DNA from: Thermodesulfobium sp. 4217-1
GTDB lineage: Bacteria; Thermodesulfobiota; Thermodesulfobiia; Thermodesulfobiales; Thermodesulfobiaceae
Direction of reading: 5' to 3'
Assembly: GCF_039822205.1 (NCBI RefSeq)
Contig: NZ_JBAGBW010000009.1
Span: 7,998-71,997 of the forward strand
Length of the DNA: 64,000 nucleotides
A program made the translations under genes and the position numbers. The notes under the pieces were generated by a model that did not search any database, was not told where the DNA came from, and was given only the letters and a program-made list of their open reading frames with translations. Of this stretch, positions 6,618 through 34,528 are shown one piece after another; positions within the stretch are counted from its first letter, which is position 1, and every line of letters begins with the position of its first letter.

Positions 6618-6646
6618 TTGGCAATTTTTGTTTTTTAGTTTATAAT
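6618..6646 (+). promoter_or_regulatory. Strong sigma-70 promoter for tRNA-Gly/tRNA-Arg
   Basis: TTGGCA at 6618-6623 and a perfect TATAAT at 6641-6646 are 17 bases apart, ending 12 bases before the first tRNA base. This is one of the best promoter matches in the window. Confidence 0.8.
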
Positions 6647-6658
6647 TTCAACATGTGA

Positions 6659-6734
6659 GCGGGAGTAGCTCAGTCGGTAGAGCATCAGCCTTCCAAGCTG
6701 AGGGTCGCGGGTTCGAATCTCGTCTCCCGCTCCA
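6659..6734 (+). tRNA. tRNA-Gly (anticodon TCC)
   Basis: A full cloverleaf of 76 bases with encoded CCA. The seven-base acceptor stem GCGGGAG pairs with CTCCCGC, the anticodon loop CTTCCAA carries TCC at 6692-6694 (reads GGA/GGG), and the T arm contains GGTTCGAATC. It is followed after 12 bases by tRNA-Arg, so both are probably cut from one transcript. Confidence 0.96.
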
Positions 6735-6746
6735 TGTTAATTTTAA

Positions 6747-6823
6747 GCGCCCGTAGCTCAGTTGGACAGAGCGGCGGACTTCTAATCCGTAGGTCACAGG
6801 TTCGAATCCTGTCGGGCGCGCCA
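6747..6823 (+). tRNA. tRNA-Arg (anticodon TCT)
   Basis: A 77-base cloverleaf with encoded CCA. Acceptor GCGCCCG pairs with CGGGCGC; loop CTTCTAA carries anticodon TCT at 6781-6783, reading AGA/AGG, which are the common Arg codons in this AT-rich DNA. No terminator separates it from the following protein gene 34 bases downstream. Confidence 0.96.
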
Positions 6824-6857
6824 CTTTTTATGCAAGATATTTTAAGGGGGAATAATT

Positions 6858-7631
6858 GTGAAGAACAATTCTGTGGTTTATGAATGCAGTCCCAATAGCT
6901 CTTTAGATATCAGCGTTAAAAAGAAAAATATTTCATATTTATCAGTTAATACTACCTTAAAAAGCGTTCTCTTTTTTGATTCAAACAATGAGGGTAAACT
7001 ACCTGGAATTTTGTTGTTTTCTGATTGGTTAGGTGTGAGCGATTTTGCCTTTGAAAAGGCAAGAAGTTTTGTAAAAGAGGGATTTGTAGTTTTGGTTGCT
7101 GATGTTTACGGCGATGGCAAGGTCGCAAAGGATCAAAAAGAAGCATTTGAGCTCTCTTCTGTTTATAAAAACAATAGGCTTTTAATGCGAGAAAGAGCTA
7201 ACGCATCGTTTGAGGAATTTAAAAAACTTGATGTTGTTAAAAAAAATAATATATCTGCTGTAGGTTATTGCTTTGGGGGGACAGTAGCACTTGAACTAGC
7301 AAGGGATGGTGCTGATCTTAAAAATGTGGTAGTTTTTCATGCAGGCTTAGACACTCCATTGGAAGCTGTTCCAGGAAACTTTAAACCTAAAGTATTAGCT
7401 TTGCACGGAGCAGACGATCCGCATGTGCCTACCGAACAGGTACTGAAGTTTCAAGAGGAGTTAAGAAAAGCAAAAGCTGACTGGTCATTCGTTTCTTATG
7501 GAAATAGCGTTCATTCGTTTACTAACAAAAAGGCTGGTACAGATTCGTCTAAAGGGGTGGCTTATAATAAATTGGCTGATAAGAGGTCATGGTCTGTCGC
7601 TATCAGCTTTCTAAAAGAGAATATCAAATAA
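6858..7631 (+). CDS. Dienelactone hydrolase family protein
   Basis: An alpha/beta hydrolase of the DLH family; such enzymes hydrolyse lactones or esters, but the natural substrate here is unknown. The catalytic triad is visible: nucleophile C138 in GYCFGG (cysteine, as in true dienelactone hydrolase), an aspartate at 186-187 in GADDPHV, and H219 in SVHSFT. Length 257 is near the family norm, with no signal peptide, so it is cytosolic. The start is GTG after AAGGGGG. It lies just downstream of two tRNA genes and seems to depend on their promoter, since no other promoter is evident in the 34-base gap. Confidence 0.88.
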   Translation: MKNNSVVYECSPNSSLDISVKKKNISYLSVNTTLKSVLFFDSNNEGKLPGILLFSDWLGVSDFAFEKARSFVKEGFVVLVADVYGDGKVAKDQKEAFELSSVYKNNRLLMRERANASFEEFKKLDVVKKNNISAVGYCFGGTVALELARDGADLKNVVVFHAGLDTPLEAVPGNFKPKVLALHGADDPHVPTEQVLKFQEELRKAKADWSFVSYGNSVHSFTNKKAGTDSSKGVAYNKLADKRSWSVAISFLKENIK

Positions 7632-7733
7632 TGGGTTTTTAAAAAACTATAGCTTATAAATTTACAAGATATCAGTTATAAAAAACACTTATTTTTTAAT
7701 ATATTTAATTTGTAATTTTGCTTATTTAAATAA

Positions 7734-7742
7734 TGTTATAAT
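7734..7742 (+). promoter_or_regulatory. Extended -10 promoter for the MBL hydrolase/MFS pair
   Basis: TG-T-TATAAT, an extended -10 with a perfect -10 hexamer, lies 39 bases before the ATG of the hydrolase gene. No good -35 hexamer is seen at the right distance, which is common for extended -10 promoters. The 150-base gap before it is otherwise AT-rich and shows no gene. Confidence 0.55.
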
Positions 7743-7781
7743 AAAATGCTGTTTTAAGTAAACTAAAAACGAGGGGATATT

Positions 7782-8618
7782 ATGAAAATTACTATTGCAA
7801 TGGATAATTGTGTCCATGCCCCAACTCCATATTCTTTTAAAGCCGAACACGGCATGTCGATTTTAATCAATGTATCTAACAAACTTATACTGTTTGACAC
7901 AGGCCAATCAGGGTCAATTATTCACAATCTTTCTTTATTAGGCGTTAACCCAAAAGATTTGGATATGATTGTTTTGAGTCATGGACACTATGATCATACA
8001 GGCGGTTTATTGTCTATTTTGGATAATGCAAGAAAAGAGATACCAATATTTCTCCATAAAGACGCCTTTCTTGACAGGTATTCTGTTGCTGCTGGGAAGA
8101 AATTTCATATTGGTATTCCCTATTCTAAGGCATATTTGGAATCATTGGGTGCAAATTTTGTTTTTGTTGAAAATGTTTTAGAGATTGTCCCAGGGCTGTT
8201 CTTGAGTGGTACTATTCCGCGTGAAACTGATTATGAAAAGGGAGATTCAAATTTAGTTATAGAAAAAGATGGCAAAACTGTAAAAGATCCGATTTTAGAT
8301 GATATGGCTTTATATGCTTTTAAGGATAATGGGCTTATAGCCCTGACAGGATGTGCCCATGCTGGCATTATAAATATTATCCGTTATGGGCTTAAAGTGC
8401 TAAAAACAGATAATCTTTATGCAATTGTTGGGGGAACTCATCTTGGTCCTGCGAGTCCAGAACAAAGAGAAAGTACAATTTCAGATTTGTTAGATGCTAA
8501 GCCAGCTATTGTGGCTGCCAATCATTGTACTGGTTTTTCTATGATGGCAAAGCTAAAAGATTCGTTTGGGGATCGTTTTATAGCTGCTTTTGTAGGAACT
8601 GAAATTGATTTTTCATAA
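7782..8618 (+). CDS. Metallo-beta-lactamase fold hydrolase (COG1237 type)
   Basis: A metal-dependent hydrolase of 278 residues. The metal motif HxHxDH is at residues 67-72 (SHGHYDHTGG); later ligand regions are TGCAHAGI, GGTHLGP and ANHCTGF. This arrangement is that of the COG1237 subgroup, often annotated as the dihydropterin-6-methyl-ribofuranosylaminobenzene phosphate synthase family; that activity is not proved for bacterial members. ATG start after GAGGGG. It forms a two-gene unit with the MFS transporter that follows, which suggests that the transporter brings in or exports the hydrolase's substrate or product. Confidence 0.85.
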   Translation: MKITIAMDNCVHAPTPYSFKAEHGMSILINVSNKLILFDTGQSGSIIHNLSLLGVNPKDLDMIVLSHGHYDHTGGLLSILDNARKEIPIFLHKDAFLDRYSVAAGKKFHIGIPYSKAYLESLGANFVFVENVLEIVPGLFLSGTIPRETDYEKGDSNLVIEKDGKTVKDPILDDMALYAFKDNGLIALTGCAHAGIINIIRYGLKVLKTDNLYAIVGGTHLGPASPEQRESTISDLLDAKPAIVAANHCTGFSMMAKLKDSFGDRFIAAFVGTEIDFS

Positions 8619-8629
8619 CGCTTAATTTT

Positions 8630-9967: not shown

Positions 9968-9974
9968 TTTTCGT

Positions 9975-10038: not shown

Positions 10039-11220
10039 ATGAAAAGAATTATTAATTCCTGTCCTACACCCTTGCACTTTCTTATAAAATGTTTGTATTT
10101 GGGCTCTACTGCATTTGGGGGAGTTGCAATGATACCTACCTTAAGAACTGAGTTTGTCAAGAAATACTCATGTGTAAGTGATAATTCATTTTTAAGAGGA
10201 ATTACTCTTACAGAGTTCTTGCCGGGCTCAATTATTAGCAATCTTATAGGGTTTATAGCTTATAGGGCATTTGGTTTTTGGTATGGAATTTTATCATCTT
10301 TAGCTATTGTTTTTCCCTCTATATTGATGATGATGTTCTTTGCATTTTTGTACTCGCATGGAAATACAGCAATAATAAATTTGGTTTTTAAGGGCTTAAA
10401 ACCCTTTGTGGTTGCATTTTTCTTCGTTGCATTTTTACAGTTCTTTAAAAAGTACATTAAATCTGGAAAACAAATAATACTGCTTCTTATTACTTTCGTT
10501 GTTTTCTTAAATAACTTTGAAATTATATATGTATTTATGTTTTCATTCTTTTTTGGGGCACTTTTGTTTAAAATCGACATGCCGCCGAGAAGAAGTTCTG
10601 CCATCGAAAAATTTTCATATAAAGAGATAGTTTATGTATTTATCATTTTGGCAACATTATGTTTTGTCGTTTTTTTCTTTTTTCCAAAATTTATTGGTTT
10701 TTGTATTAGCTTAAGCAAGATCAGTTTGCTCGCTTTTGGAGGTGCTCAGTCAGCACTTCCTCTTTATCATAAGACATTTGTTGTGGACAACAATCTTTTA
10801 ACTCAAAACGCTTATTTAGATGCTGTTCTTATTAGCCAAATTACTCCTGGTCCGGTTCTTTGTCTTTCTGGATACATTGGGTATGTTTATGGCGGTATTT
10901 TGGGTGCAATGCTGGCATTCTTGTTTACTTTTTTGCCACCTATAATTTTATTAATCTTAGTTAATCCATTTTATGACAGACTGAGCAAAAAGATTTGGTT
11001 CTATAGAGGCATGATCGGAGTAATTACCTCTCTAACATCACTTCTCATATCTTTAGGGGTTCAATTCTTCCCACAAACCATAATTGACCCATTCACTTTT
11101 TCGGTTATGATAATAAGTGCTCTGTCTCTTTATTATAAAAAACCAGTTATATGGACAGTGGCTATAATCTCTATTTCATCTTATATTTATTATGGTTTTT
11201 TAACGCAGATTTTAAAATAA
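10039..11220 (+). CDS. Chromate transporter family protein (two-domain)
   Basis: A membrane protein of 393 residues with two homologous halves, the full-length CHR family layout. Each half begins with an AFGG motif (STAFGGVAM near residue 25 and LAFGGAQS near 235) and has a GPG/TPGP-type segment (LPGSIISN; TPGPVLCL). The family exports or exchanges chromate or sulfate-like oxyanions; many members have other, unknown roles, and no chromate-resistance gene is adjacent. There is no ribosome-binding site; the ATG directly follows a palindrome with a possible -10 box, so the message may be nearly leaderless. No downstream partner is evident. Confidence 0.88.
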   Translation: MKRIINSCPTPLHFLIKCLYLGSTAFGGVAMIPTLRTEFVKKYSCVSDNSFLRGITLTEFLPGSIISNLIGFIAYRAFGFWYGILSSLAIVFPSILMMMFFAFLYSHGNTAIINLVFKGLKPFVVAFFFVAFLQFFKKYIKSGKQIILLLITFVVFLNNFEIIYVFMFSFFFGALLFKIDMPPRRSSAIEKFSYKEIVYVFIILATLCFVVFFFFPKFIGFCISLSKISLLAFGGAQSALPLYHKTFVVDNNLLTQNAYLDAVLISQITPGPVLCLSGYIGYVYGGILGAMLAFLFTFLPPIILLILVNPFYDRLSKKIWFYRGMIGVITSLTSLLISLGVQFFPQTIIDPFTFSVMIISALSLYYKKPVIWTVAIISISSYIYYGFLTQILK

Positions 11221-11274
11221 ACACTTTTTAGCTTTTTAGGTTATAATATAGTAAATTGGAGAAATTTGTCGTGG

Positions 11275-11302
11275 TTGACAATTTTTATAATTTTTGTAGA
11301 AT
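11275..11302 (+). promoter_or_regulatory. Sigma-70 promoter for tRNA-Glu/tRNA-Val and probably rpoD
   Basis: A perfect -35 TTGACA (11275-11280) and TAGAAT (11297-11302) are 16 bases apart, 9 bases before tRNA-Glu. Nothing of similar quality lies between the tRNAs and rpoD, so this promoter probably also drives the long rpoD operon. Confidence 0.75.
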
Positions 11303-11311
11303 ATTAACGAT

Positions 11312-11387
11312 GCCTCCATCGTCTAGGGGACTAGGACATCGCCCTTTCAAGGCGGAAACAGGGGTTCGAATCCCCTTGGAGGTACCA
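11312..11387 (+). tRNA. tRNA-Glu (anticodon TTC)
   Basis: A 76-base cloverleaf with encoded CCA. Acceptor GCCTCCA pairs with TGGAGGT (one G-T pair), the anticodon loop CTTTCAA carries TTC at 11346-11348, and the T loop is GGTTCGAATC. A tRNA-Val follows 28 bases later. Confidence 0.95.
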
Positions 11388-11415
11388 TTTTGTTTTTTTA
11401 GCCTCTTGATAAAAT

Positions 11416-11490
11416 GGGCGGATAGCTCAGTGGCAGAGCACCTGCTTTACACGCAGGGGGTCGTAGGTTCAAACCCTACTTCGCCCACCA
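11416..11490 (+). tRNA. tRNA-Val (anticodon TAC)
   Basis: A 75-base cloverleaf with encoded CCA. Acceptor GGGCGGA pairs with TTCGCCC, the anticodon stem is CCTGC/GCAGG, and the loop carries TAC at 11448-11450. It ends 31 bases before the rpoD start with no terminator between them. Confidence 0.95.
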
Positions 11491-11521
11491 TTTTTAAAAC
11501 TTCATTTTAGAAGGTGAAAAT

Positions 11522-12592
11522 ATGCCAAAAAATTCTAAACGTGTTAAGAAAATTCCACAAGTATCCAACCCAGATGATCAATCCTTTAAAAATTTCCCTA
11601 ACTTTTTTGATGATCTTGAAGAACCATCTGATTTAGATAACATAATAAAGTCCATAGAAGCTGGAAATGTAGGGGAAGAAGATCAGGATCTTTTGAAGAT
11701 TGTCCTTGATACTGAACCTGTTTTGCCAGAGGATGTTCTTGTTATGCCAGAAGAACGCGTACCTATGGTAGAGGATCCAGTTAGGCAATACCTTAAAGAA
11801 ATTGGAAAAATACCTCTACTTAAACATGCAGAAGAAAAATATTTGGCAGAGAAAGCTTTCTTTGGCGACGAGACAGCTAAAAGAAAACTGGCTGAAGCAA
11901 ATTTGAGGCTTGTAGTCTCAATCGCAAAGAAATACACAAAAAGGGGCTTATTGTTTCTCGACTTGATTCAGGAAGGCAATATGGGCTTGCTGAGAGCCGT
12001 AGAAAAATTTGACTATAGAAAAGGTTATAAATTTTCAACTTATGCAACTTGGTGGATTAGGCAGGCTGTAACCAGAGCAATAGCAGACCAAGCAAGAACG
12101 ATTAGAATTCCTGTCCATATGGTAGAAACTATTAACAAATATAAGAAAGCTATTAGAAATCTAAGCCAACAGTTAAGCAGAAAGCCTACAGATGAAGAAA
12201 TTGCAGAAAAGATGGAAGTAAATATTGAAAAAATTCACGAAATTAAAAGAATTTCCCAAGAGCCAATTTCTATCGAAACTCCAGTTGGCAAGGATGAAGA
12301 TAGCCACCTCGGAGATTTTATAGCTGACGAATCCATTTCATCGCCTATGGAAGCAGTAACATACCACCTTTTAAAAGAAGATCTGGAAGACGTTATAAAG
12401 GATTTACAGCCAAGGGAAAGGGATGTGGTAAGGCTTAGATTTGGTTTAGTTGACGGTCATTCAAGAACGCTTGAAGAGGTTGGCAAAGAATTTGGCGTTA
12501 CAAGAGAAAGAATTCGCCAAATAGAGGCTAAGGCACTTAGAAAATTAAGACACCCAAGCAGGAGTCGCAAACTTAGGGACTATTTAGTATAA
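11522..12592 (+). CDS. rpoD: RNA polymerase primary sigma factor
   Basis: The housekeeping sigma-70 that directs RNA polymerase to -35/-10 promoters such as those seen in this window. The 356-residue length is close to Bacillus SigA and lacks the large insert of proteobacterial RpoD. An acidic N-terminal stretch comes first, then region 1.2 ([16 protein letters not shown]), region 2 with the -10 reading helix ([14 protein letters not shown]), region 3, and region 4 with the -35 helix-turn-helix ([21 protein letters not shown]). ATG start after GAAGGTG. It directly follows tRNA-Glu and tRNA-Val and leads into uppS with only two bases between, so it appears to be co-transcribed with both. Confidence 0.96.
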
Positions 12593-12594: not shown

Positions 12595-13278
12595 ATGCAA
12601 AAAATAAACCATATTGCCATTATAATGGATGGCAACGCAAGATGGTCTAAGACGAGGTCGATGCCAGTTTTTAATGGCCATCTTGAAGGATTCATGAAAT
12701 TACAAGAAATGGTTAATTGTTTTATAGATAGAGATATTCCTTATTTAAGCGTTTACGCTTTTTCGACAGAGAATTGGAAGAGACCAAAAGAAGAAATAAC
12801 TGGAATTTTTAAAATTTTTTATGATGGTATTGAGAAGTACATAAAAGATTGGTCAAAAAGAGGAGTTAAATTAAAATTTTTCTCTCTTAAGGAAAATTTA
12901 TCAAAGGATGTTTTGAAATTAATTGAAAATTCGGAAAAAATTGAGGTTTCACCTATAAAAGTTAACCTTGGAGTTGCTTTTAATTATGGTTCAAGAAAAG
13001 AAATCCTATATGCAGTTAACAACTTAAATGCTGCTCAATCTGAAATCAATGAAGAGAATTTTTCAAGATCATTACTTACTAACTCTTTTCCTGATCCCGA
13101 TATATTGATAAGAACTGGTGGAGAAAAAAGGATAAGTAACTTTTTTTTATGGCAGATAGCATATACTGAGCTATTTTTTATTGACAAACTTTGGCCAGAT
13201 TTTTCAGAAAACGATTTAGATGGTATTATTGCAGAATATCATAGCAGACAAAGGAGATTTGGGGGACGTAATTCTTGA
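12595..13278 (+). CDS. uppS: Undecaprenyl (polyprenyl) diphosphate synthase, cis-prenyltransferase
   Basis: Extends farnesyl diphosphate with isopentenyl units to the C55 carrier of cell-wall synthesis. Catalytic D12 lies in IIMDGNARW; the usual motif has glycine where this protein has alanine. Later motifs are YAFSTENWKRP, DILIRTGGEKR and the C-terminal YTELFFID with WPDF. Length 227 is slightly short but normal. The ATG is two bases after the rpoD stop with no Shine-Dalgarno, so it probably relies on coupling. It opens the conserved uppS-cdsA-dxr-rseP-ispG-proS block. Confidence 0.95.
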   Translation: MQKINHIAIIMDGNARWSKTRSMPVFNGHLEGFMKLQEMVNCFIDRDIPYLSVYAFSTENWKRPKEEITGIFKIFYDGIEKYIKDWSKRGVKLKFFSLKENLSKDVLKLIENSEKIEVSPIKVNLGVAFNYGSRKEILYAVNNLNAAQSEINEENFSRSLLTNSFPDPDILIRTGGEKRISNFFLWQIAYTELFFIDKLWPDFSENDLDGIIAEYHSRQRRFGGRNS

Positions 13279-14048
13279 TTTTTAGGATTATAACGGCTTC
13301 GTGGGGCATACCAGTTTTGTTGTTCTTTGTATATGCTGGCAACTATTGGTTTATGTTTTTGTTGTCAGTATTAATATTGTGCTCCACTTATGAGGTTAAT
13401 CTTATGATGAAGAGCAAGAACTATAATATGCCTTTTGTCACATTCATAACTTCATTTTTAATTTTTTTTGGAAGCATTTTTGGTTTTTTGCCGCTTGCAG
13501 TATTTTTATCTACATTGCTTTTTTTTAGTTTTCCGTTGATATTTGTCAACAGATATTCCTTTTTTGATATTAGTTTCTCATTCATAATTTCCTTCTTTAT
13601 ATCTTATTCCCTATCCTTTTTCTATCTTATTAGAAATCTTGATAACGGATTTTTTTGGTCTATATCGCTCTTATCTAGCCTATGGCTTGGCGATTCTATG
13701 GCTTATATTGTTGGTAAAAATTTCGGCAAACACAGGCTTTCCAATATTTCACCTAAAAAAACATGGGAAGGTGCACTGGCAAATCTAATCTTTGGCATTA
13801 TTCCATTTATTGCCCTCTCGTTTTATTTGCAAAAATCTATATTTTTGTTAATTTTTTTAGGTGCTGTTGTAAATGTCGTTTCGCAAATTTCTGATTTAAG
13901 CGAATCATTAATCAAGAGAACGTTTGATTGTAAGGACTCTGGCAATCTCTTGCCAGGTCACGGTGGTTTTTTTGATAGATTTGATAGTCTATTTTTTTCT
14001 GCTCCCGTTTTATATTTTATGATTTTTTATCTTGTGGGTATTAAATGA
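13275..14048 (+). CDS. cdsA: Phosphatidate cytidylyltransferase
   Basis: Integral membrane enzyme that makes CDP-diacylglycerol from phosphatidate and CTP, the entry point to phospholipids. There are about seven or eight hydrophobic segments. The family signature is near the C terminus, SLIKRTFDCKDSGN followed by LPGHGGFFDRFDS, with the preceding SPKKTWEG motif. Length 257 is typical. The TTG start overlaps the uppS stop (TTGA). Confidence 0.94.
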   Translation: MIFRIITASWGIPVLLFFVYAGNYWFMFLLSVLILCSTYEVNLMMKSKNYNMPFVTFITSFLIFFGSIFGFLPLAVFLSTLLFFSFPLIFVNRYSFFDISFSFIISFFISYSLSFFYLIRNLDNGFFWSISLLSSLWLGDSMAYIVGKNFGKHRLSNISPKKTWEGALANLIFGIIPFIALSFYLQKSIFLLIFLGAVVNVVSQISDLSESLIKRTFDCKDSGNLLPGHGGFFDRFDSLFFSAPVLYFMIFYLVGIK

Positions 14049-15172
14049 AAAAGATAATTTTAATTGGGTCCACTGGTTCAATAGGCACTCAAGCATTAGA
14101 TGTGGTTAGGAAGCATTCAGATAAATTAAAGATTGTCGGTTTAGCTGCTCGCACGGGATCAGAGAAATTTAAAAGTCAGATCGAAGAATTCAAGCCTGAG
14201 AGCGTTAGTTTGTTGTATGAAGCAGAGCTTGATATAGGACCAAAAAATATTTTTTATGGGTTTCAAGGCATTTTGGAGATGATTGAAAAAACTGATGCTG
14301 ATGTAGTTCTATTAGCTTGGGTTGGTAAGGATTCTCTATATGTTGCTAAAACTGCATTGGATTCTGACAAGGATCTTGCTTTTGCTACCAAAGAGATACT
14401 CGTTTATGGTGGGAATTTAATAGTCAATTATGCTAAAAAAATGGGCAAAACAATTTTACCAGTAGATAGCGAACACAACGCAATTTTTCAACTATTAGAA
14501 GGTGAGGATATATCCTCTGTAAGCTCGATATACCTAACTGCTTCTGGCGGCCCATTTCACAAGAAACATTTTGTCGAAAATCCATCAGTTGATGAGGTAT
14601 TGCTTCATCCAACATGGAAAATGGGACCAAAGGTTACAGTGGATTCTGCCAACCTAATGAACAAAGGTTTTGAGGTAATTGAGGCATCTTTTCTTTTTGG
14701 TTTAGATGCTGACAGAATTAAAGTTCTTATTAATAGAACAAGCCTGGTGCATTCTTTGATTACATTCCTTGATGGATCTGTCAAGTTTTTATATTATAAA
14801 CCTGATATGTGCATACCTATTCAGCATGCTCTTTCTTATCCTGAAAGATGGGACCATCAAATAGAAGATTTTAAAGAAGATTTTATTTTAGAGTTCGAGC
14901 AACCAGATTATAATAAGTTTCCTTGTCTAGGTATTGCATACGAAGCATTGAAGGGCGGCTCAGTTAAAACCGCGACGCTTGCTGCCTGTGATGAAGTCCT
15001 GGTAAACGCATTTTTAAATAAGCAAATCTCATTTCTAAATATTCCAAAGATGTTAGAATTAATCTTATCGGAATCATATTCTGGTGACGTCTCTTCATTT
15101 GAAGAAGTTGGTTTAATTTATGACGAGACTGTTAAGAAAACTTTAAATTTATTGGAGGTTTATAAGCTTTAA
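14045..15172 (+). CDS. dxr: 1-deoxy-D-xylulose 5-phosphate reductoisomerase
   Basis: Second step of the MEP isoprenoid pathway: converts DXP to 2-C-methylerythritol 4-phosphate using NADPH and a divalent metal. The N-terminal nucleotide site is GSTGSIGTQALD; metal and substrate motifs are VDSEHNA, TASGGPF and HPTWKMGPKVTVDSA with NLMNKGFEVIEA. Length 375 is typical. ATG overlaps the cdsA stop (ATGA). Together with ispG, two genes downstream, it shows the organism uses the MEP pathway. Confidence 0.96.
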   Translation: MKKIILIGSTGSIGTQALDVVRKHSDKLKIVGLAARTGSEKFKSQIEEFKPESVSLLYEAELDIGPKNIFYGFQGILEMIEKTDADVVLLAWVGKDSLYVAKTALDSDKDLAFATKEILVYGGNLIVNYAKKMGKTILPVDSEHNAIFQLLEGEDISSVSSIYLTASGGPFHKKHFVENPSVDEVLLHPTWKMGPKVTVDSANLMNKGFEVIEASFLFGLDADRIKVLINRTSLVHSLITFLDGSVKFLYYKPDMCIPIQHALSYPERWDHQIEDFKEDFILEFEQPDYNKFPCLGIAYEALKGGSVKTATLAACDEVLVNAFLNKQISFLNIPKMLELILSESYSGDVSSFEEVGLIYDETVKKTLNLLEVYKL

Positions 15173-16197
15173 TGGAGAATATTTTAATTTTCATTTTGGT
15201 TATATTTGTGGCTACGCTTGTTCACGAAGCGGGACATTTTGTATTTGCAAGGATTTTTGGCGTAGGAGTTTACGAATTTTCTGTTGGTTTTGGTCCACGA
15301 ATTTTCAAAAGCAAATATAAAGAAACTGATTTAAGCGTTAGAATACTGCCTCTTGGAGGTTTTGTAAGAATTGCTGGCTTAGATGAGGGAGAGGTCCCTC
15401 CTGGAACAAAGAGATTTGATCAGATAAGGTCTTTCCAAAAGATTTTAGTAATAGTAGCTGGGCCTGTTATGAACATAATTATGGCTGCAGTTTTGTTTAC
15501 CCTTGTTTTTACCCAGGGAGTATATGTTCCAGATTTAAGAATTCAATCGGTAAATAGTGATTTTCCGGCTGCAAAAGCTGGAATCCAGGTTGGTGACAGA
15601 ATTGTTTCAGTGAATGGCATTTCAATAAAAACGCCAAACGATTTAATAAGAATAGTCTCTGAATCTAAAGGCGAAAAATTAGACTTAACCCTTTTAAGAG
15701 ATGGCAAGGACATTAATATCAGCCTTTATCCAGAATTTGATCAAAAAGACAATAGATATCTTATCGGGATAATGTTCGATCGCACTATGAAAAAGTATTC
15801 TGTTGTTGATTCTGTATATATGGGCTTTACTCAAACTTTATCATGGGGAATTGCGCTCGTTGTTAGTATATGGATGTTGATATCGGGACAGGTACCCGTA
15901 GGGAGTTTGGCTGGTCCAATAGGCATTGCCAATATGCTTGGTCAGGCTGCTAATGAAGGTCCGACTGCTCTTCTCTTTTTTGTGGGATTTTTGTCTTTAA
16001 ATCTTGGAATATTAAACTTGTTACCCATCCCTGCACTTGATGGTTCTAGGATACTATTTTTGATTATAGAGATGATTAGAGGAAAACCTATAGATCCTAA
16101 GAAGGAAAACTTTATACATGTTGCTGGTTTTGTATTTCTAATCTTATTAATGATATTTGTAAGCTACTTCGATGTGTTGAGACTTTTTAAGAAATGA
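15172..16197 (+). CDS. rseP: Site-2 intramembrane metalloprotease (RseP/RasP)
   Basis: Cleaves transmembrane substrates such as anti-sigma factors and leftover signal peptides. The zinc motif HEAGH is at residues 18-22 within the first membrane segment; a single PDZ domain spans roughly residues 105-190; the second active-site motif NLLPIPALDG is near residue 285, in the C-terminal membrane part. One PDZ domain, as here, is the usual Gram-positive and deep-branching form. ATG overlaps the dxr stop (TAATG), and the 3' end overlaps ispG. Confidence 0.94.
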   Translation: MENILIFILVIFVATLVHEAGHFVFARIFGVGVYEFSVGFGPRIFKSKYKETDLSVRILPLGGFVRIAGLDEGEVPPGTKRFDQIRSFQKILVIVAGPVMNIIMAAVLFTLVFTQGVYVPDLRIQSVNSDFPAAKAGIQVGDRIVSVNGISIKTPNDLIRIVSESKGEKLDLTLLRDGKDINISLYPEFDQKDNRYLIGIMFDRTMKKYSVVDSVYMGFTQTLSWGIALVVSIWMLISGQVPVGSLAGPIGIANMLGQAANEGPTALLFFVGFLSLNLGILNLLPIPALDGSRILFLIIEMIRGKPIDPKKENFIHVAGFVFLILLMIFVSYFDVLRLFKK

Positions 16198-17246
16198 TAA
16201 GAAAAGAAGTTTTAGTTAGAGATCTTGTTTTTGGCTCGGGCAAGATATTTGTTCAGACAATGACAAAGACAGATACAAGAAATGTAGGCGCTACTGTGGG
16301 TCAAATCAAGCGAATCCAAAAGGCTGGGGCTGACCTGGTAAGGCTTGCAGTACCAGACAATGAAGCTGCTGAATCAATAGCAAAAATTATTAAAAAGGTA
16401 TCAATACCATTGGTAGCTGATATTCATTTTGATTATAGGCTGGCCTTAAAAACTATCGATGCTGGAATTTCCAAAATTAGAATTAATCCTGGCAATATTG
16501 GCTCAAAAAGTAACTTATTAGAGGTGGTTAAGGCTGCAGCTTATAATAAAGTTCCTATCAGAATAGGCGTAAATGAGGGTTCTATCCCTAAGGATCTTGT
16601 CAACCTTTTTAATGAAGATCCTGTTAATGCCCTTTTTGAGTCTGTTTCAAGAGAAGTAAGCTTGCTGGAAGAAGCGGGGTTTGGCGATATTGTAATTAGT
16701 GCAAAGACATTTTCTGTTAACTTGCTTGTAAAAACTTATGAAAGACTTTATAAGGAGTTTCCATATCCACTGCACTTAGGGGTTACTGAGGCAGGTCCTA
16801 TGTTTCAAGGAACAGTCAGGTCGAGCGTAGGTTTAGGCATTTTGTTAGACAAGGGAATTGGTGATACCATTAGAGTTTCTCTTAGCTCGAATCCAATTGA
16901 TGAGATTAGGGTTGGCAAAGAAATACTTAAATCTCTGGACATTGAAGCGGGTCCTGTGATCATATCCTGTCCGACTTGTGGTAGGACAGAGGTAAATTTA
17001 AAGAGATTAACAAAAGTTGTTGAGAAAAGGCTCTTAAGCGTTAAAAAGCCTTTAAAAATTGCTATTATGGGCTGTGCAGTGAATGGTCCATCAGAGGCTA
17101 AATCTGCTGACTTAGGCATTGCAGGTGCGAAAAATTTTGCATTTTTATTTAAATATGGAAAAATAATTAAAAAAATTGATAACGATAATATGGAAGAAGT
17201 TTTTTTAGATGAGCTTGAATCTCTTATTTCTCAGGAGGATTTATGA
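16194..17246 (+). CDS. ispG: (E)-4-hydroxy-3-methylbut-2-enyl diphosphate synthase
   Basis: Penultimate MEP-pathway enzyme; a 4Fe-4S protein that reduces methylerythritol cyclodiphosphate to HMBPP. The TIM-barrel part begins GKIFVQTMTKTDT; cluster cysteines are in CPTCGRTEV and MGCAVNGPSEA. Length 350 matches the short bacterial form. The oxygen-sensitive cluster suits an anaerobe but is universal in the family. Start overlaps the rseP stop (ATGA) and its own stop overlaps proS. Confidence 0.95.
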   Translation: MIRKEVLVRDLVFGSGKIFVQTMTKTDTRNVGATVGQIKRIQKAGADLVRLAVPDNEAAESIAKIIKKVSIPLVADIHFDYRLALKTIDAGISKIRINPGNIGSKSNLLEVVKAAAYNKVPIRIGVNEGSIPKDLVNLFNEDPVNALFESVSREVSLLEEAGFGDIVISAKTFSVNLLVKTYERLYKEFPYPLHLGVTEAGPMFQGTVRSSVGLGILLDKGIGDTIRVSLSSNPIDEIRVGKEILKSLDIEAGPVIISCPTCGRTEVNLKRLTKVVEKRLLSVKKPLKIAIMGCAVNGPSEAKSADLGIAGAKNFAFLFKYGKIIKKIDNDNMEEVFLDELESLISQEDL

Positions 17247-18952
17247 AACTTTCCAAATTGTTTTTTAGAACTTTAAAAGAAGTACCTGGCGATGCAGAGG
17301 CTATCAGCCACATCTTATTGCTGAGGGCTGGATACATAAGGCGTCTTGGCTCAGGGATATACACTTATTTGCCATTGGCTAAGAAGGTTTTATTGAAAAT
17401 TGAAAATATAGTTAGAGAAGAAATGATTAACATAAACTCTCAAGAATTACTTCTTCCTGCCCTTCAACCCAAGGAGATTTGGGAAATTTCTGGCAGATGG
17501 AAAAAATATGGTCCTGAACTTATGAGATTCAAGGATAGACATGATAAAGAATATGCGCTTGGTCCTACTCATGAAGAGGTTATAACTGATTTAATAAACA
17601 GAGAAGTTAGTTCTTACAAGCAGCTCCCAATTTCTGTTTTTCAAATACAGACAAAATTCAGGGATGAAATAAGGCCAAGATTTGGTTTGATGAGGTCTAG
17701 GGAATTTATTATGAAGGATGCCTATAGCTTTCACAGAAACGAAGAAGATCTTGATGTGACTTACTGGGATATGTTTCACGCTTATGAAAAAATTCTTAAT
17801 AGAATGGGGCTAAATTTTAAATCTGTAGAGGCAGACTCTGGTGCTATTGGCGGGAGTGTTTCTCACGAATTTATGGTTCTGACTCCTTATGGCGAAGATA
17901 AAATACTGTATTGTTCGAGCTGTTCTTATGCTGCCAACCTTGAAAAGGCATCTTCAAGCTATGAACCTTTTGATGTCAGGGATTTTTCAGACTTGGATAT
18001 CGTATCTACTCCAAATGCAAAAACTGTTGATGAAGTTTCTAAATTTGTGGGTGTGGATCAAAAGTACATTCTAAAATCTCTGATGTATAAAATTGAAGGC
18101 GAACCAACAATGATAATATTGGCTGGTGATGATGAGCTAAATGAAGTGAAATTAAAAAATGCCTTTGGTGGGAAAGAAATATCTATGATGACACCTGACG
18201 AAATTAAGCAAAAACTCGATTTATCTGTTGGCTCTATAGGGCCAGTTAAAGTAAACAACATAAAGTTAATATGTGATAAGAGGGTTTGTGTAGAAAACGT
18301 CTCGTTTTATGCTGGAGCCAATAAAGATGGATACCATTTTAAAAACGTCTATTTTAAAAGAGATTTTTACTCGGATAATATATTTGATTTAAGGGTTTCA
18401 AAAGCTGGAGAATTTTGTCCGCGTTGTGGTGCCAAGCTTGTTGAAAGCACTGGCAGCGAGGCTGGTCATGTATTTAAGCTTGGCACAAAATATAGCGAAC
18501 CTATGAAAGCCTGTTTCAAGGATGAAAATGGCAAGGAAAAACCCTTTGAGATGGGATGCTATGGTATTGGCATTTCTAGGCTTCTATCTATTGTTGTAGA
18601 ACAGCACCACGATGAATTTGGAATTATATGGCCCGCAACTTTGTGCCCCTATCAGGTTATAGTTATTCCTGCTAATGTAAAAGATGAAAATCAGCTAAAT
18701 ACCGCAGATATGATCTTTCATGAGCTCAGGGACAGGGGGATTAGCGTTTTATTCGATGATCGTGATGATAGAGCAGGTGTAAAGTTTAAAGACGCAGATC
18801 TCTTAGGGATACCGATCAAGATAATTATAGGAGGACATTTTTCAAAGTCTGGTCTTATTGAGATAAAGATTAGGCGTGATGGGAGTTCAAATCTTGTACC
18901 TCCTGATGAGGCCAGCGTTTATGTGTCTCTTAAATTAAGGCAACTAATATAG
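17243..18952 (+). CDS. proS: Prolyl-tRNA synthetase (bacterial type with editing domain)
   Basis: Charges tRNA-Pro. Class II motifs are clear: motif 1 around LLPALQPKEIW, motif 2 in FRDEIRPRFGLMRSREF, motif 3 near EMGCYGIGISRLLS. The insertion between motifs 2 and 3 (about residues 220-385) is the YbaK-like editing domain of bacterial ProRS. Length 569 is standard. It overlaps ispG by four bases, and ends the uppS-proS block as in Firmicutes, but polC, which often follows there, is replaced by a penicillin-binding protein. Confidence 0.96.
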   Translation: MKLSKLFFRTLKEVPGDAEAISHILLLRAGYIRRLGSGIYTYLPLAKKVLLKIENIVREEMININSQELLLPALQPKEIWEISGRWKKYGPELMRFKDRHDKEYALGPTHEEVITDLINREVSSYKQLPISVFQIQTKFRDEIRPRFGLMRSREFIMKDAYSFHRNEEDLDVTYWDMFHAYEKILNRMGLNFKSVEADSGAIGGSVSHEFMVLTPYGEDKILYCSSCSYAANLEKASSSYEPFDVRDFSDLDIVSTPNAKTVDEVSKFVGVDQKYILKSLMYKIEGEPTMIILAGDDELNEVKLKNAFGGKEISMMTPDEIKQKLDLSVGSIGPVKVNNIKLICDKRVCVENVSFYAGANKDGYHFKNVYFKRDFYSDNIFDLRVSKAGEFCPRCGAKLVESTGSEAGHVFKLGTKYSEPMKACFKDENGKEKPFEMGCYGIGISRLLSIVVEQHHDEFGIIWPATLCPYQVIVIPANVKDENQLNTADMIFHELRDRGISVLFDDRDDRAGVKFKDADLLGIPIKIIIGGHFSKSGLIEIKIRRDGSSNLVPPDEASVYVSLKLRQLI

Positions 18953-18955
18953 ACA

Positions 18956-21055
18956 ATGTTAAGTAAAATAAAAAAATTTTTAATTTTTATAGGGATTTTT
19001 CTAGCTCTTTTTGTTGTAGGTCTTTTAGCTGGTGTAACAATTTATTCTTTTATTAAAGTTCCAAACGTAGAAAGCCTTGAAAACTATGCTCCACCTGAGG
19101 CTACACAGATATTTGATAGAAATGGCAAGTTGATAACTACTCTGTATGATTCTGAGAACAGAGTCGTGGTTCCATTGAAGGATATCCCAAATAATCTTAG
19201 AGACGCTGTAATAGCAGTCGAGGACTCAAGGTTTTATTCAGAAGTGGGTTTCGATCCTATTGGCATTATGAGGGCTTTTATCGCAGATATTATGCATAGA
19301 AAAGAAATCGAAGGCGGCAGTACTTTGACTCAGCAGCTGGTAAAGAATATTTATCTTACTCCACAGCAAACTTTAATGAGAAAACTGGTAGAATTGGTCA
19401 TTTCTATTAGGGTAGATCTGACTTTAAGCAAAGATAAAATATTAGAACTCTACCTTAACGAAATCTATTTGGGGCATGGTACCAATGGAGTCCAGGCCGC
19501 TTCAAAGTATTACTTTAACAAAGACGTAAAAAATCTTAATTTAGCAGAATCTGCAATGCTTGCAGGATTAATAAGTGCTCCAGAATATTATTCACCTGTA
19601 AGAAACTTTAAGTTAGCAAAAGAGCGTCAGAAGATAGTATTAAACAGAATGGTTGACGTAGGGTATATCACTAAGGCTCAGGCAAATGATGCATACAGTC
19701 AGCCAATTGATATCGTTCATTCAAATACCAGATGGGGCGGAATAGCTCCTTATTTTGTCGATCATATCTTACAAGAAATGGCTAAAAAATACGGTTATAA
19801 TGAAGTTTATACTGGTGGCTTAAAAATTTATACTACTCTTGACTACAATATGCAGGAAGAAGCAGATAAGATGGTAAAAGATTATGTGAAAAAATACAGC
19901 TATCTTCACGTTTCAGAAGGGGCACTGGTTGCTATCGATCCACAAAACGGAGAGATTAGAGCCTATGTGGGCGGAACAAGCTACGAAAAAAGTCAATTTG
20001 ATAGAGTAATAATGGCTGAGAGACAGCCAGGATCTTCTTTTAAACCATTCGTATACCTGACCGCCTTGGAACAGGGACTGGGTCCTAATACTACATTATC
20101 TGATACTCCCGTTACATATCAAACCCCTGAAGGTCCATGGAGTCCTCAGAATTATGAGAGAACTTTTATGGGTAACATTCCTATGTGGGAGGCTCTAATG
20201 CTATCCAGGAATGTTCCAAGTGTGAAATTGCTTGACATGGTTGGGGTAGAGAACGCAATTAAAACGGCAAGAAAGGCTGGGATTAAAAGCCACCTAAACG
20301 CAAACCTTGCCCTTGCTCTTGGTGCGAGTGATGTGAACCTTCTTGAAATGACTTCTGCCTATGGCGTTTTCGCAAATAGAGGAATAAGGGTGGAACCAAT
20401 ATTTATTACCAAGGTTGTAGATAGAAACGGTAAAGTTTTAGAAGAAAATAAACCTATACCACAGAGGGTTTTTGAGGAAAAATATATTTCGGTGCTTGAC
20501 GGTATGCTTACTAACGTAATTTTACACGGTACTGGAATGGCTGCTAATATTGGTAGGCCTGCTGCAGGAAAAACTGGCACTACTGACGACTTTAGGAATG
20601 CATGGTTTATGGGATTTACTCCAAATATGGTTTGTGGCGTTTGGGTAGGAAATGACGATAATTCGCCAATGAACGGTGTAGTTGGTGGATTTATCCCTGC
20701 TGAAATTTGGGCTGGATTTATGAAGTATGCTCTTACAGGGACACCCGTTGCATATTTTCCAAAGAGTTCTGAGTCTATCGGATCTTCTAGTGGCAATGAG
20801 GTAAGTGTTTGGATTTGCAGCGGTTCTGATAAATTGGCTACAGACAAGTGCCCAAATCCTATTTTAAAATCATTCCCGAAGGACAATGTACCTACAGAAT
20901 ATGACAGTAGATACCCTGGAACTCCTTATGTTCCGACTGAGGAGAAAAGAAAAGAAAATACTGTCGGGAAAACAAAAAATTCAAATGAAAACAGTCAACC
21001 AACAACCATCCCTAAACATGAAGGAAACTCTATTATCGTTCTCCCCCAAAGATAG
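18956..21055 (+). CDS. Class A penicillin-binding protein (glycosyltransferase/transpeptidase)
   Basis: Polymerises and cross-links peptidoglycan on the outer face of the membrane. One N-terminal membrane anchor (residues 8-30) is followed by a GT51 domain with catalytic EDSRFY (E89) and EGGSTLTQQLVKN, then a transpeptidase domain with SSFK, SRN and KTGTTDD motifs. Length is 699. The last 60 residues are a low-complexity polar tail rich in K, E, N and T. The ATG is three bases after proS with no clear Shine-Dalgarno. Its 3' end overlaps the oppositely oriented hypB by 23 bases. PBP1a-like; the exact ortholog name is not certain. Confidence 0.94.
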   Translation: MLSKIKKFLIFIGIFLALFVVGLLAGVTIYSFIKVPNVESLENYAPPEATQIFDRNGKLITTLYDSENRVVVPLKDIPNNLRDAVIAVEDSRFYSEVGFDPIGIMRAFIADIMHRKEIEGGSTLTQQLVKNIYLTPQQTLMRKLVELVISIRVDLTLSKDKILELYLNEIYLGHGTNGVQAASKYYFNKDVKNLNLAESAMLAGLISAPEYYSPVRNFKLAKERQKIVLNRMVDVGYITKAQANDAYSQPIDIVHSNTRWGGIAPYFVDHILQEMAKKYGYNEVYTGGLKIYTTLDYNMQEEADKMVKDYVKKYSYLHVSEGALVAIDPQNGEIRAYVGGTSYEKSQFDRVIMAERQPGSSFKPFVYLTALEQGLGPNTTLSDTPVTYQTPEGPWSPQNYERTFMGNIPMWEALMLSRNVPSVKLLDMVGVENAIKTARKAGIKSHLNANLALALGASDVNLLEMTSAYGVFANRGIRVEPIFITKVVDRNGKVLEENKPIPQRVFEEKYISVLDGMLTNVILHGTGMAANIGRPAAGKTGTTDDFRNAWFMGFTPNMVCGVWVGNDDNSPMNGVVGGFIPAEIWAGFMKYALTGTPVAYFPKSSESIGSSSGNEVSVWICSGSDKLATDKCPNPILKSFPKDNVPTEYDSRYPGTPYVPTEEKRKENTVGKTKNSNENSQPTTIPKHEGNSIIVLPQR

Positions 21056-29747: not shown

Positions 29748-32700
29748 TTGCCTAAGAGAACAGATATAAAAAAGATTCTTATAATAGGTTCTGGACCTAT
29801 AGTGATAGGTCAAGCATGCGAGTTTGACTATTCTGGTACTCAGGCTATAAAAGCTTTAAGGCAGGAAGGATATGAAGTAGTTCTAGTAAACTCAAATCCT
29901 GCTACAATTATGACCGATCCAGAAATGGCCGATCACACTTATATTGAACCCATAACCCCACAAATTGTAACCAAGGTTATACAAAAAGAAAAGCCAGATG
30001 CAATATTGCCTACCTTGGGGGGACAGACTGCCCTCAATGTTGCGGTAAACCTGGCAGAAGCAGGAATATTAGAAAAATATAATGTCGAGATGCTGGGCGT
30101 GAATGTTGGCGCAATTAAGAAGGGCGAAGATAGACTTTTATTCAGAGAAACTATGAAAGAAATTGGTGTGGATCTGCCTAAAAGCGGAGTGGCACACAGT
30201 ATAAACGAAGCAGAAAAAATTGCTTTTGAACTCGGTTTTCCATTGATAATAAGGCCATCTTTTACGTTGGGCGGAACAGGTGGGGGCATTGCTTATAACT
30301 TTGACGATCTAATGGCTCACGTAGCTAATGGATTGGATCTTAGTATGATTCATCAGGTTCTGATTGAAGAGTCTGTCCTTAATTGGAAAGAGTTTGAATT
30401 AGAGGTAATGAGGGACAAAAAGGACAATGTAGTTATAATATGTTCTATTGAAAACCTGGATCCTATGGGCGTTCATACAGGGGACAGCATTACCGTAGCC
30501 CCAATCCAAACCTTAACCGATAAAGAGTATCAAATCCTAAGAGATATGTCTATCAAGATCATTAGAAAAATTGGTGTGGATACGGGCGGATCAAACATTC
30601 AGTTTGCGATGAACCCAAACGACGGTCGCATTGTAATTATTGAGATGAATCCACGTGTTTCAAGGAGCTCTGCGCTTGCATCAAAGGCTACAGGATTCCC
30701 AATTGCAAAAATTGCTGCCCTTCTTGCTGTGGGGTACAGCCTTGATGAAATTACAAATGACATTACAAAGAAGACTCCAGCATCTTTTGAGCCAACATTA
30801 GACTATGTGGTAGTAAAGATACCCAGATGGGATTTCGAAAAATTTCATGGAACCTCAAGGGTATTGGATACCCAGATGAAGTCTGTGGGCGAGGCTATGG
30901 CAATTGGAAGAAATTTCAAAGAAGCTTTTCAAAAGGCTATCCGATCCCTTGAAAACGGCAGAAAAGGATTCGGATTCGACGGCAAGGATGCTGACCTTGC
31001 AAAATTGACAAAGGATGAACTTATAGAAGAAATTAGAACCCCTAAAGACAATAGGATTTTTATAATTCACAGGCTATTGGAAATGGGTTTAGGTGTTGAC
31101 GAGCTAAATAAACTAACTGGAATAGATAAGTGGTTTTTAAAAGAACTTGAAGAAATTGTCTTAACAGGAAAAGAATTTATGAATAAGGATCTATACTCTG
31201 TTGAAAAAGATAGCCTGGCTAATTTAAAAAGAGATGGTTTTTCAGATTTTCAGATAGCTTTTCTAACAGGATCAAACGAACAAGAGGTTTCAAAATATAG
31301 AAAAGATCTCGAAATTGTTCCAGTATATAAGACGGTTGATACATGTTCTGCTGAGTTTGAATCCTTTACTCCATATCATTATTCTACTTATGATCAGGAG
31401 AACGAACTGGTTCCTTTTGAGGACAAAGAGTCTGTAGTTATTTTAGGGGCTGGCCCAAATAGAATTGGACAGGGTATCGAATTTGATTATTGTTGTGTTC
31501 ATGCAGTTGGCTCTTCCAAAGATTTGGGCAAGGCTGCAATAATGGTAAACTGTAACCCCGAAACTGTTTCTACTGATTATGATACCTCCGATCAGCTTTT
31601 ATTTGAGCCTTTAACGTTTGAAGACGTTATGAATATTATTGAAAGAATAAAACCCTTAGGGACATTAATACAGTTTGGCGGTCAGACACCCTTGAAGCTT
31701 GCTAAATCATTTGAGAAACTTGGTGTTCCAATTCTTGGGACATCTCCAGAGGCTATTGATATGGCAGAAGATAGGGAGCGATTTGATGCCTTTTTAGAGA
31801 GCTTAAAAATATTTAGACCTGCTGCAGGCATTGCAAAGTCGTCAGGTGAGGCGCTAAAAGTTGCAAGGGGTCTTGGCTATCCAGTATTGGTCAGACCGTC
31901 ATATGTTTTGGGCGGCAGGGCTATGGAGATTGTTTATGATGATAATGATTTACTCGAGTATATCAAAAAAGCAGTTGAGGTTTCTGAAGCTAAGCCCGTT
32001 TTAATTGACAGATTTTTGGAAGATGCAATAGAAATAGATGTCGATGCGCTCTGTGATGGAGAAGAGGTATTTATAGGCGGAATAATGGAACATATTGAAG
32101 AGGCAGGCATTCATTCAGGAGATTCTGCTTGCGTGCTGCCATCATTTAGCTTGACTAAGGAAGAGGTATCTGAACTATCTAGGATTACAAGAGAGATTGC
32201 TTTAAAGTTGGGGGTAAGAGGTTTAATAAACATTCAGTTTGCCATCAGAGATAGAATTTATGTATTAGAGGTAAACCCAAGGGCATCAAGGACAGTCCCG
32301 TTTGTAAGCAAGACTATAGGTATCCCGCTGGCTAAGCTGGCAACAAAAATATCGCTCGGGAAAAAGATAAAAGACTTTAATATCAAAGAAAGATTAGATC
32401 TCCCATATATTGCGGTAAAAGAAGCTGTATTGCCATTTGGAAGATTTTCAGGAGTTGACACTATCTTGGGACCAGAGATGAAGTCTACTGGTGAAGTGAT
32501 GGGAATTGATTTTGAATTCGGAAAGGCTTATGCAAAAGCTCAACTTGCTGCTGGTGAAGAGCTGCCTCTTAGGGGGAATGTTTTTGTGAGCGTTTCAAAC
32601 AAGCATAAGAGAAACATCGTATTTATAGTAAAAAGCCTTGTAAATATGGGCTTCAACATATATGCTACACAGGGAACTGCTAAGGTTCTAAAATTTAACG

Positions 32701-32984
32701 GGATAAAGGTTAATGAAGTAAAAAAAGCAAGCGAAGACGGTCATACAATTCTTGATATGGTTAAGGATAACGAAATCCAGCTCATAATAAATACACCATC
32801 TGGTAAGGGTGCAAGAAAAGATGACTATAAGATAAGAAGGATGGCTCTCTTGCATCATGTGCCGACCATTACAACCATTGCTGGAGCTGCTGCAACAGTG
32901 AACGCCATTGAGGCTCTGAAGAGTTCTGAAATAGAGGTAAGGTCTATACAGGATTTCTATAAAATTTTGAATAAACAGCTTTAA
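29748..32984 (+). CDS. carB: Carbamoyl-phosphate synthase large subunit
   Basis: Makes carbamoyl phosphate from bicarbonate, ammonia and two ATP, for pyrimidine and arginine synthesis. The full two-fold form of 1078 residues is present. Each half has a biotin-carboxylase-like start ([36 protein letters not shown]) and an ATP-grasp domain ([26 protein letters not shown]). A C-terminal MGS-type domain follows from about residue 935 (ATQGTAKVL), the usual site for UMP/ornithine/IMP control. TTG start, weak AAGGA 11 bases upstream. Last gene of the pyr run. Confidence 0.97.
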
Positions 32985-33087
32985 GTTAAAGAGGATTAAA
33001 AGTAAGATTTATTGTTTCTTAGATTTAAAATTTGAGGTGTCAGTTGAAAAATATTTTATTTTGGCAAAATTCTTTTTAATATTTTTC

Positions 33088-33116
33088 TTGACTTTATTCG
33101 AATATTTCATTACAAT
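33088..33116 (+). promoter_or_regulatory. Sigma-70 promoter for tRNA-Met and tilS operon
   Basis: TTGACT (33088-33093) and TACAAT (33111-33116) are exactly 17 bases apart, 16 bases before the tRNA. The rest of the 148-base gap after carB is AT-rich with no credible gene. Confidence 0.7.
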
Positions 33117-33132
33117 AATTCTGCTTTTATGT

Positions 33133-33207
33133 GGCGGCGTAGCTCAGAGGCAGAGCAAGCGGTTCATACCCGCTGTGTCAGTGGTTCAAATCCACTCGCC
33201 GCTACCA
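33133..33207 (+). tRNA. tRNA-Met (anticodon CAT), elongator type
   Basis: A 75-base cloverleaf with encoded CCA. Acceptor GGCGGCG pairs with CGCCGCT; the anticodon stem-loop GCGG-TTCATAC-CCGC carries CAT at 33165-33167. The acceptor, anticodon arm and GCTACCA end are close to the Bacillus elongator tRNA-Met as I remember it. The C1-A72-type mismatch of initiator tRNA is absent. A tRNA-Ile2, whose C34 would become lysidine, is the alternative. Confidence 0.85.
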
Positions 33208-33214
33208 TTCTTTT

Positions 33215-34528
33215 ATGTCTATTAATTCTGAAATAAAAGACCTTGTGTTTCACGTTGACGAAATAATTAAAAAGAGTAGCGTTGATCTTCTTAATCCCTG
33301 TATTGCCATATCAGGCGGAGCAGATTCAGTCTTGTTGGCGTTTGTGTTATCAGAATTAAAAATTAAAAGAAACTTTATATTGCTGCATTTCGATCATGGT
33401 TGGAGAAAAGAGGATCTCGTTTTTGAAAGAGATTTGATTGCTAATTATGCTGAAAGGTACAGCTTCAGAGTTATTTTCGGATCTTCAAAGGCTCCCGAAA
33501 AAAAAGATGAAGACGAGGCAAGAAAAAATAGGTTCAAGTTTTTTGCTAATACAATGAGTAAAATAGATTCAAATGTTTTATTCACGGGTCACAATCTAAA
33601 TGATAGGTTTGAAACTTTTTTGTGGAATATTTGCCGCGGAACAGGGCTAAGTGGAATGCTTTCTCCCAAAGAGGTAAGAAAGAATAAAAATTTTGCTATT
33701 TTTAGTCCTCTAATTCACGTTAGAAGAGAAAAGATTAGAGTTTTTTGTGAACATTTGGGACTGCATTATATATCTGATCCTTACAATGAAGATACTAATT
33801 ATAAAAGAGTCTTTATCAGGAAAGAAGTATCGCCGAGAATAGAAAACATTTGGCAAAATTCTTTGGATCATTTTGACACGTTTATTAAATTGGCAGAAGA
33901 TGAAAACGCTTATCTTGATAGGGTTACTGATGAAATTTATGCCGATGTTGTAATTAAATTGCCCTGGGCCAATATCATATATATTAAAGAGTTATTTAAC
34001 TTTGACGTTGCTTTAATAAGAAGAGTTATTATAAAATTTTTAAATTCATTAAATGTTCCCTATGGCTTTAAAGAAATTGAATTACTTTATAAATATTTGG
34101 CAAATAACTCACATATCTCTCTTTCTTCATTTAAAGATAATGGTATCTATAGAAACGAAAATATTTTCTCTATATATGATTTACATTTTTCAAAAGGGTA
34201 TTCTGATGACAAGATTCCAGATGATTTGGGAATCACAATTTCAAAGCCATTAGAAACTAAAATTGATTTGCAGATTAGGTTTTTTAGGAGTTCTGATTAT
34301 CTCGTTTTGAACGGCAAGAAAGTATATCTTTATAGCTTTTTTAATAATAGAAATCAATATTTCTATAAATTTATGCCAATGGTTTTCTATAAAAATATTC
34401 TTAGGTGGTCACCGTTTGTTTATTTTGATGAAAACTTTTTTAAGTCTTATAATATTGAAATTGTTTATGATAAGTTTTTAGAGAAGTTGAAATTAACATG
34501 GAGGCGCAATGACAGGAACTATAATTAA
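33215..34528 (+). CDS. tilS: tRNA(Ile)-lysidine synthase
   Basis: Modifies C34 of tRNA-Ile(CAT) to lysidine so that it reads AUA. The PP-loop SGGADS is at residues 33-38, followed by HFDHGWR and TGHNLNDRFETFLWNICRG. Length 437. The ATG lies only seven bases after the 3' end of tRNA-Met and has no Shine-Dalgarno, so after tRNA processing the message would be almost leaderless. It overlaps the next gene by 20 bases. The tilS-hpt-ftsH order is that of Firmicutes, here with an extra gene inside. Confidence 0.93.
   Translation: MSINSEIKDLVFHVDEIIKKSSVDLLNPCIAISGGADSVLLAFVLSELKIKRNFILLHFDHGWRKEDLVFERDLIANYAERYSFRVIFGSSKAPEKKDEDEARKNRFKFFANTMSKIDSNVLFTGHNLNDRFETFLWNICRGTGLSGMLSPKEVRKNKNFAIFSPLIHVRREKIRVFCEHLGLHYISDPYNEDTNYKRVFIRKEVSPRIENIWQNSLDHFDTFIKLAEDENAYLDRVTDEIYADVVIKLPWANIIYIKELFNFDVALIRRVIIKFLNSLNVPYGFKEIELLYKYLANNSHISLSSFKDNGIYRNENIFSIYDLHFSKGYSDDKIPDDLGITISKPLETKIDLQIRFFRSSDYLVLNGKKVYLYSFFNNRNQYFYKFMPMVFYKNILRWSPFVYFDENFFKSYNIEIVYDKFLEKLKLTWRRNDRNYN

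Follow-up and report, generated by a model that had tools for sequence, protein, structure and literature searches.

Organization of three tRNA-headed gene units

The window, by which we mean the whole 64,000-nt stretch of the Thermodesulfobium sp. 4217-1 genome that was analysed, contains five tRNA genes at three sites that are each followed, on the same strand and after a short gap, by a protein gene. Each site has the same order, in which a promoter is followed by one or two tRNA genes and then by a CDS encoding a dienelactone-hydrolase-family (DLH) protein, the primary sigma factor RpoD or TilS. The features are as follows.

6618..6646, + strand: sigma-70-type promoter TTGGCA-17-TATAAT before tRNA-Gly (consensus and matrix score; hexamers the same in G001 and G003)
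6659..6734, + strand: tRNA-Gly(TCC) (ARAGORN)
6747..6823, + strand: tRNA-Arg(TCT) (ARAGORN)
6858..7631, + strand: DLH-family CDS, 34 nt 3' of tRNA-Arg (Pfam)
11218..11247, + strand: weaker candidate upstream promoter before tRNA-Glu (TATAAT kept in four genus members)
11275..11302, + strand: promoter TTGACA-16-TAGAAT before tRNA-Glu (hexamers invariant in the genus)
11312..11387, + strand: tRNA-Glu(TTC) (ARAGORN)
11416..11490, + strand: tRNA-Val(TAC) (ARAGORN)
11491..11521, + strand: rpoD leader/spacer, 31 nt, with Shine-Dalgarno sequence AGAAGGTG (kept in four genomes save small indels)
11522..12592, + strand: rpoD, primary sigma factor (Pfam, NCBIfam)
12595..21055, + strand: uppS-cdsA-dxr-rseP-ispG-proS-PBP1A, gaps or overlaps of 4 nt or less (Pfam, NCBIfam)
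33088..33116, + strand: promoter TTGACT-17-TACAAT before tRNA-Met (-35 TTGACT kept in four genomes; -10 is TACAAT or TAAAAT)
33133..33207, + strand: elongator tRNA-Met(CAT), neither tRNA-Ile2 nor initiator (ARAGORN; identity from the acceptor)
33215..34528, + strand: tilS, start codon 7 nt past the tRNA, without Shine-Dalgarno sequence (NCBIfam model above cut-off)
34509..35189, + strand: DUF554 CDS (Pfam)
35186..35716, + strand: hpt (HGPRT model above cut-off)

The first-pass annotation, which was made from the sequence alone, had proposed these three units, with protein genes 7–34 bases from the tRNA genes, and the ARAGORN predictions, CDS starts and promoter scans agree with it. Its gene identities also held: the models for the RpoD C-terminal region, Dxr, RseP, IspG, ProS, the PBP1A family, TilS and HGPRT scored above cut-off, and UppS, DUF554 and DLH were matched by Pfam, the cdsA assignment being weaker (90 bits, under cut-off). 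Of the sigma-70 matches in the genome, only the rpoD product is full-length; the other is a distant 226-aa frame. The genes from rpoD through the PBP gene overlap or abut within 4 nt and plausibly constitute one long operon. Folding of the leader RNAs gave no signal (z of -0.16, -0.60 and 0.80). A sixth tRNA gene of the window, tRNA-Ser, is located at 63213-63303 (ARAGORN).

Promoters and tRNA–CDS spacers

The promoters preceding tRNA-Gly, tRNA-Glu and tRNA-Met match the 12-position consensus at 11, 11 and 10 positions, respectively. With a matrix derived from 66 tRNA promoters/units of two species of the genus, they scored 14.5–14.8, a partly circular result because the three sites belong to the training set. 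Since the median for tRNA units of this genome is 13.5, a strong promoter directly before a tRNA gene is ordinary here, and the special point is the genes that follow. A second TATAAT at 11242-11247, located 5' of the tRNA-Glu promoter, is also kept in the genus and represents a possible tandem promoter.

Between the start of the tRNA genes and the start codon, the best internal sites scored 5.7 (DLH), 6.5 (rpoD) and 2.2 (tilS) with the same matrix. These values are at or near the medians (2.5–6.5) and below the 90th percentiles (8–10) of random windows of equal length. By the matrix and sequence criteria, no promoter-like site above background is present between tRNA and CDS in the three units, and no terminator-like site was found in their tRNA–CDS spacers. 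The first-pass annotation had described each tRNA set as preceded by a good sigma-70 promoter and separated from its protein gene by neither a terminator nor a strong promoter, and both statements are confirmed.

Conservation of the units

The genus was sampled by four genomes (G000–G003, G000 being the present genome and G002 a draft); the other compared genomes share only the domain. The Glu-Val-rpoD order is present in all four, with invariant -35/-10 hexamers before tRNA-Glu, the same spacing and tRNAs, and an rpoD spacer that differs only by small indels; the tRNA-rpoD spacing in related genomes was a check proposed by the first-pass annotation. The tRNA-Met-tilS unit is likewise present in all four genomes with an identical 7-nt gap, even though the TilS protein is only 64% identical to those of G001 and G003. 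The Gly-Arg-DLH order is present in G001 and G003, where the DLH gene is interrupted (by a stop codon in G003 and as a split match in G001); no DLH gene was detected in the draft G002. Because G001 and G003 have kept the tRNA promoter but not an intact DLH gene, the latter looks like a passenger of tRNA-Gly/Arg.

Of the 106 rpoD loci that were inspected outside the genus, 80 are named and mostly from Bacillota, and a few lie on short contigs; no same-strand tRNA gene precedes the rpoD match within 900 nt at any of them. Therefore, the tRNA-Glu/Val–rpoD link appears to be particular to the genus, as far as compared. In several other phyla, a tRNA-Met gene is located shortly downstream of rpoD (L065-L068, L070, L073-L076, L079).

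tRNA-headed protein genes in the whole genome

A census of all 43 tRNA genes (33 units) revealed that approximately 15 units (∼45%) are followed by a protein gene on the same strand, at a distance of no more than 80 nt and without an intervening terminator; the starts of tilS, selB, tuf and dapL were set by hand. In addition to DLH, rpoD and tilS, the first genes are tuf (after tRNA-Tyr/Thr), trmO (Phe/Gln/Glu), secE (Trp, 78 nt), selB (Sec), rplU (Ser), rpsF (Ser), spoVS (Pro), pfkB (Gln), a pilin-like gene (Arg), dapL (Leu/Gly) and two small ORFs. Six of the 15 (tilS, trmO, selB, tuf, rplU and rpsF) have a role in translation or act on tRNA. Each of the 15 links is also present in the second species, G001, with a similar gap. 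A crude automated count of CDSs within 60 nt gave 11 of 32 units here versus 5 of 20, 10 of 21 and 2 of 25 in three unrelated compact genomes. Because such genomes show 2/25 to 10/21, tRNA-headed protein genes are not unique to the present genome; together with the proportion of similar units in the genome itself, these counts also mean that three such units in one window are not in themselves improbable.

Several individual loci of the census are worth recording. The tRNA-Sec gene lies 21 nt 5' of selB (L046:5190-5325; 20 nt in G001), and the tRNA-Phe/Gln/Glu cluster precedes trmO, a tRNA methyltransferase gene, by 17 nt in both species (L037, reverse complement 366-459). The dapL gene (L035:4287, contig C21; L240 in G001) has an apparent ATC start after a strong GAGGAGG Shine-Dalgarno sequence in both species, and in G000 no ATG, GTG or TTG codon suits its N-terminus. 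A cold-shock-protein gene is located 142–150 nt after tRNA-Leu(GAG) in both species (L056, L261).

The tRNA-Met–tilS neighbourhood in other bacteria

TilS was surveyed in 127 genomes outside the genus, with one genome per family. In 30 of them, the elongator tRNA-Met model placed this tRNA gene on the tilS strand and no more than 900 nt upstream. ARAGORN, applied to sampled loci, added nine, raising the total to at least 39 of 127 (at least a quarter). In all but three of the cases, no more than 272 nt separate the tRNA gene from the start of the TilS domain, and the longer gaps may include small intervening ORFs. Since there is about one elongator tRNA-Met gene per genome, well under one such case would be expected by chance.

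We also read 91 tilS loci directly, 23 of which were picked as already positive and one of which is from the window itself. An upstream tRNA gene is present in 41 of these, and the nearest is elongator tRNA-Met in 40, ten of which have an initiator or similar CAU tRNA gene further upstream; tRNA-Ile2, the substrate of TilS, was not found as the upstream tRNA at any of the 41 loci. In the window, the possibility that tilS adjoins its own substrate tRNA, a CAU tRNA whose Ile2 identity is marked by C4 and C5, was rejected, the GGCGGCG acceptor being that of elongator tRNA-Met, and an Ile2-like tRNA gene (acceptor GGGCCCT) sits elsewhere in the genome. Terminator-like hairpins intervene between tRNA-Met and tilS at 8 of the 40 loci, and shared transcription is thus not universal. 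A TilS tree required 32 changes, versus a shuffled mean of approximately 30, with at least six forced by well-supported branches, and is too weak to distinguish retained ancestry from repeated gain. No report of the tRNA-Met–tilS linkage was found in the literature searched, and the searched passages of a 2025 paper on TilS do not discuss gene neighbours. The tilS unit of the window is one instance of this much wider neighbourhood.

Discussion

Because the promoters and spacings are conserved, no internal promoter rises above background and TGATAAAAT, a possible alternative start between the two tRNA genes, is not conserved, co-transcription of tRNA and mRNA is very likely in the three units. 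We are confident that each unit is a tRNA–mRNA operon with a single tRNA promoter, whose transcript would be processed by RNase P and an endonuclease. This reading is favoured by the hexamers, tRNAs and spacing shared by four genomes, the lack of an internal site, the 15 recurring links, the nuclease set and the encoded CCA; the points that count against it are that genes of compact genomes are often packed tightly on one strand and that the tRNA promoter of the DLH unit has persisted despite the decay of the DLH gene.

In such an operon, RNA polymerase would start at the strong tRNA promoter and continue through the tRNA gene(s) into a protein gene without a promoter of its own. RNase P, which is universal to our knowledge, would cleave at the 5' ends of the tRNAs. 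The A/U-rich trailer would be cut by an endonuclease that is probably RNase Y and not RNase Z, and exonucleases would trim the tRNA back to its encoded CCA. The mRNA freed in this way would have a very short 5' leader, of at most 31 nt for rpoD and at most 7 nt for tilS; wherever the 7-nt spacer is cut, the tilS mRNA would be nearly leaderless and lack a Shine-Dalgarno sequence. The first-pass annotation had proposed that the sigma factor is tied to tRNA transcription and that RNase Z and RNase P cuts create the mRNA 5' ends. Shared transcription is supported by the conservation, and the role of RNase P can be retained. The part assigned to RNase Z is not supported: no protein of this family reached the cut-off in three genomes (best 35 bits versus 293, a generic MBL hydrolase in the window), CCA is encoded in all tRNA genes, and RNase Y is present (728 bits). 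Neither a CCA-less tRNA gene nor an RNase Z, the marks of RNase Z-processed precursors, was found, and RNase E/G is absent from the genome by model search. The second gene of the Gly/Arg unit (7782-8618) was considered as a candidate RNase Z and rejected; it encodes a generic MBL hydrolase whose closest PDB entry is 2p4z.

A different explanation is that the protein genes have promoters of their own near or inside the tRNA genes and are mere neighbours of the tRNAs. Such a promoter may be weak or unusual, using an alternative sigma factor or overlapping a tRNA, and two sites before rpoD could be taken as candidates. However, the one at 11493-11521 (score 6.5) falls to 2.4 in G001, and 6.5 is also the median score for random 210-nt windows; the other, TGATAAAAT at 11407-11415, was named by the first-pass annotation as a start that could refute shared transcription, but its score is 3.2 and neither G001 nor G003 retains it, the inter-tRNA spacer carrying it diverging within the genus in contrast to the conserved rpoD spacer. 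As the 7-nt gap before tilS is also too short for a promoter, we regard this explanation as improbable. A more serious contender, although we still think it somewhat unlikely, is that the adjacency reflects only the packing of a compact genome without regulatory meaning. The similar counts in the control genomes and the decaying DLH partner fit this idea, but the retention of the same partners across the genus and the share of first genes acting in translation or on tRNA (6/15) argue against it.

For the tilS unit, one may further suppose that elongator tRNA-Met and tilS are an ancient or repeatedly selected pair, in which shared transcription would tie the supply of TilS, the enzyme modifying tRNA-Ile2, to a look-alike CAU-anticodon tRNA that it must not modify, keeping the two in balance. 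The number of genomes with the pair and the near-exclusive position of elongator tRNA-Met, never tRNA-Ile2, next to tilS are in its favour; against it stand the intervening hairpins and the simpler explanation of a retained ancestral order, and we consider it rather doubtful.

The tRNA–mRNA operon layout that we prefer is of a known but uncommon kind, as exemplified by tufB and metY-nusA. In Escherichia coli, a tRNA-Met gene heads the metY-nusA-infB operon of information-processing genes; it differs from the tilS unit in that the tRNA there is the initiator and the proteins are different. A tRNA-Trp-secE-nusG arrangement is probably common elsewhere, and the tRNA-Trp–secE link of the present genome, outside the window, corresponds to it. 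In the Bacillus tilS-hprT-ftsH region, tRNA-Met and tRNA-Glu genes are presumably nearby, separated from tilS by other genes; the window resembles this region in that tilS is soon followed by hpt with tRNA-Met in the vicinity. The enterobacterial tufB operon (thrU-tyrU-glyT-thrT-tufB) is similar to the window units in that tRNA genes behind one promoter are followed by a protein gene, there a translation gene, and tRNA-Tyr/Thr–tuf is a tufB-like case in the present genome; the tRNA genes of the window units, by contrast, are paired with rpoD, tilS and a hydrolase gene. The four tRNA genes preceding tufB are described in PMC6134099, and a metY-rpsO operon is mentioned in PMC9765468. What is new here is the partners, including the main sigma factor, and the broad tRNA-Met–tilS neighbourhood. 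If the tRNA-Glu/Val promoter is the sole promoter of rpoD, synthesis of the sigma factor would directly follow the growth-rate control of tRNA, and the tRNA-Met–tilS linkage gives a genomic point of entry to the question of how bacteria separate the decoding of AUA from that of AUG.
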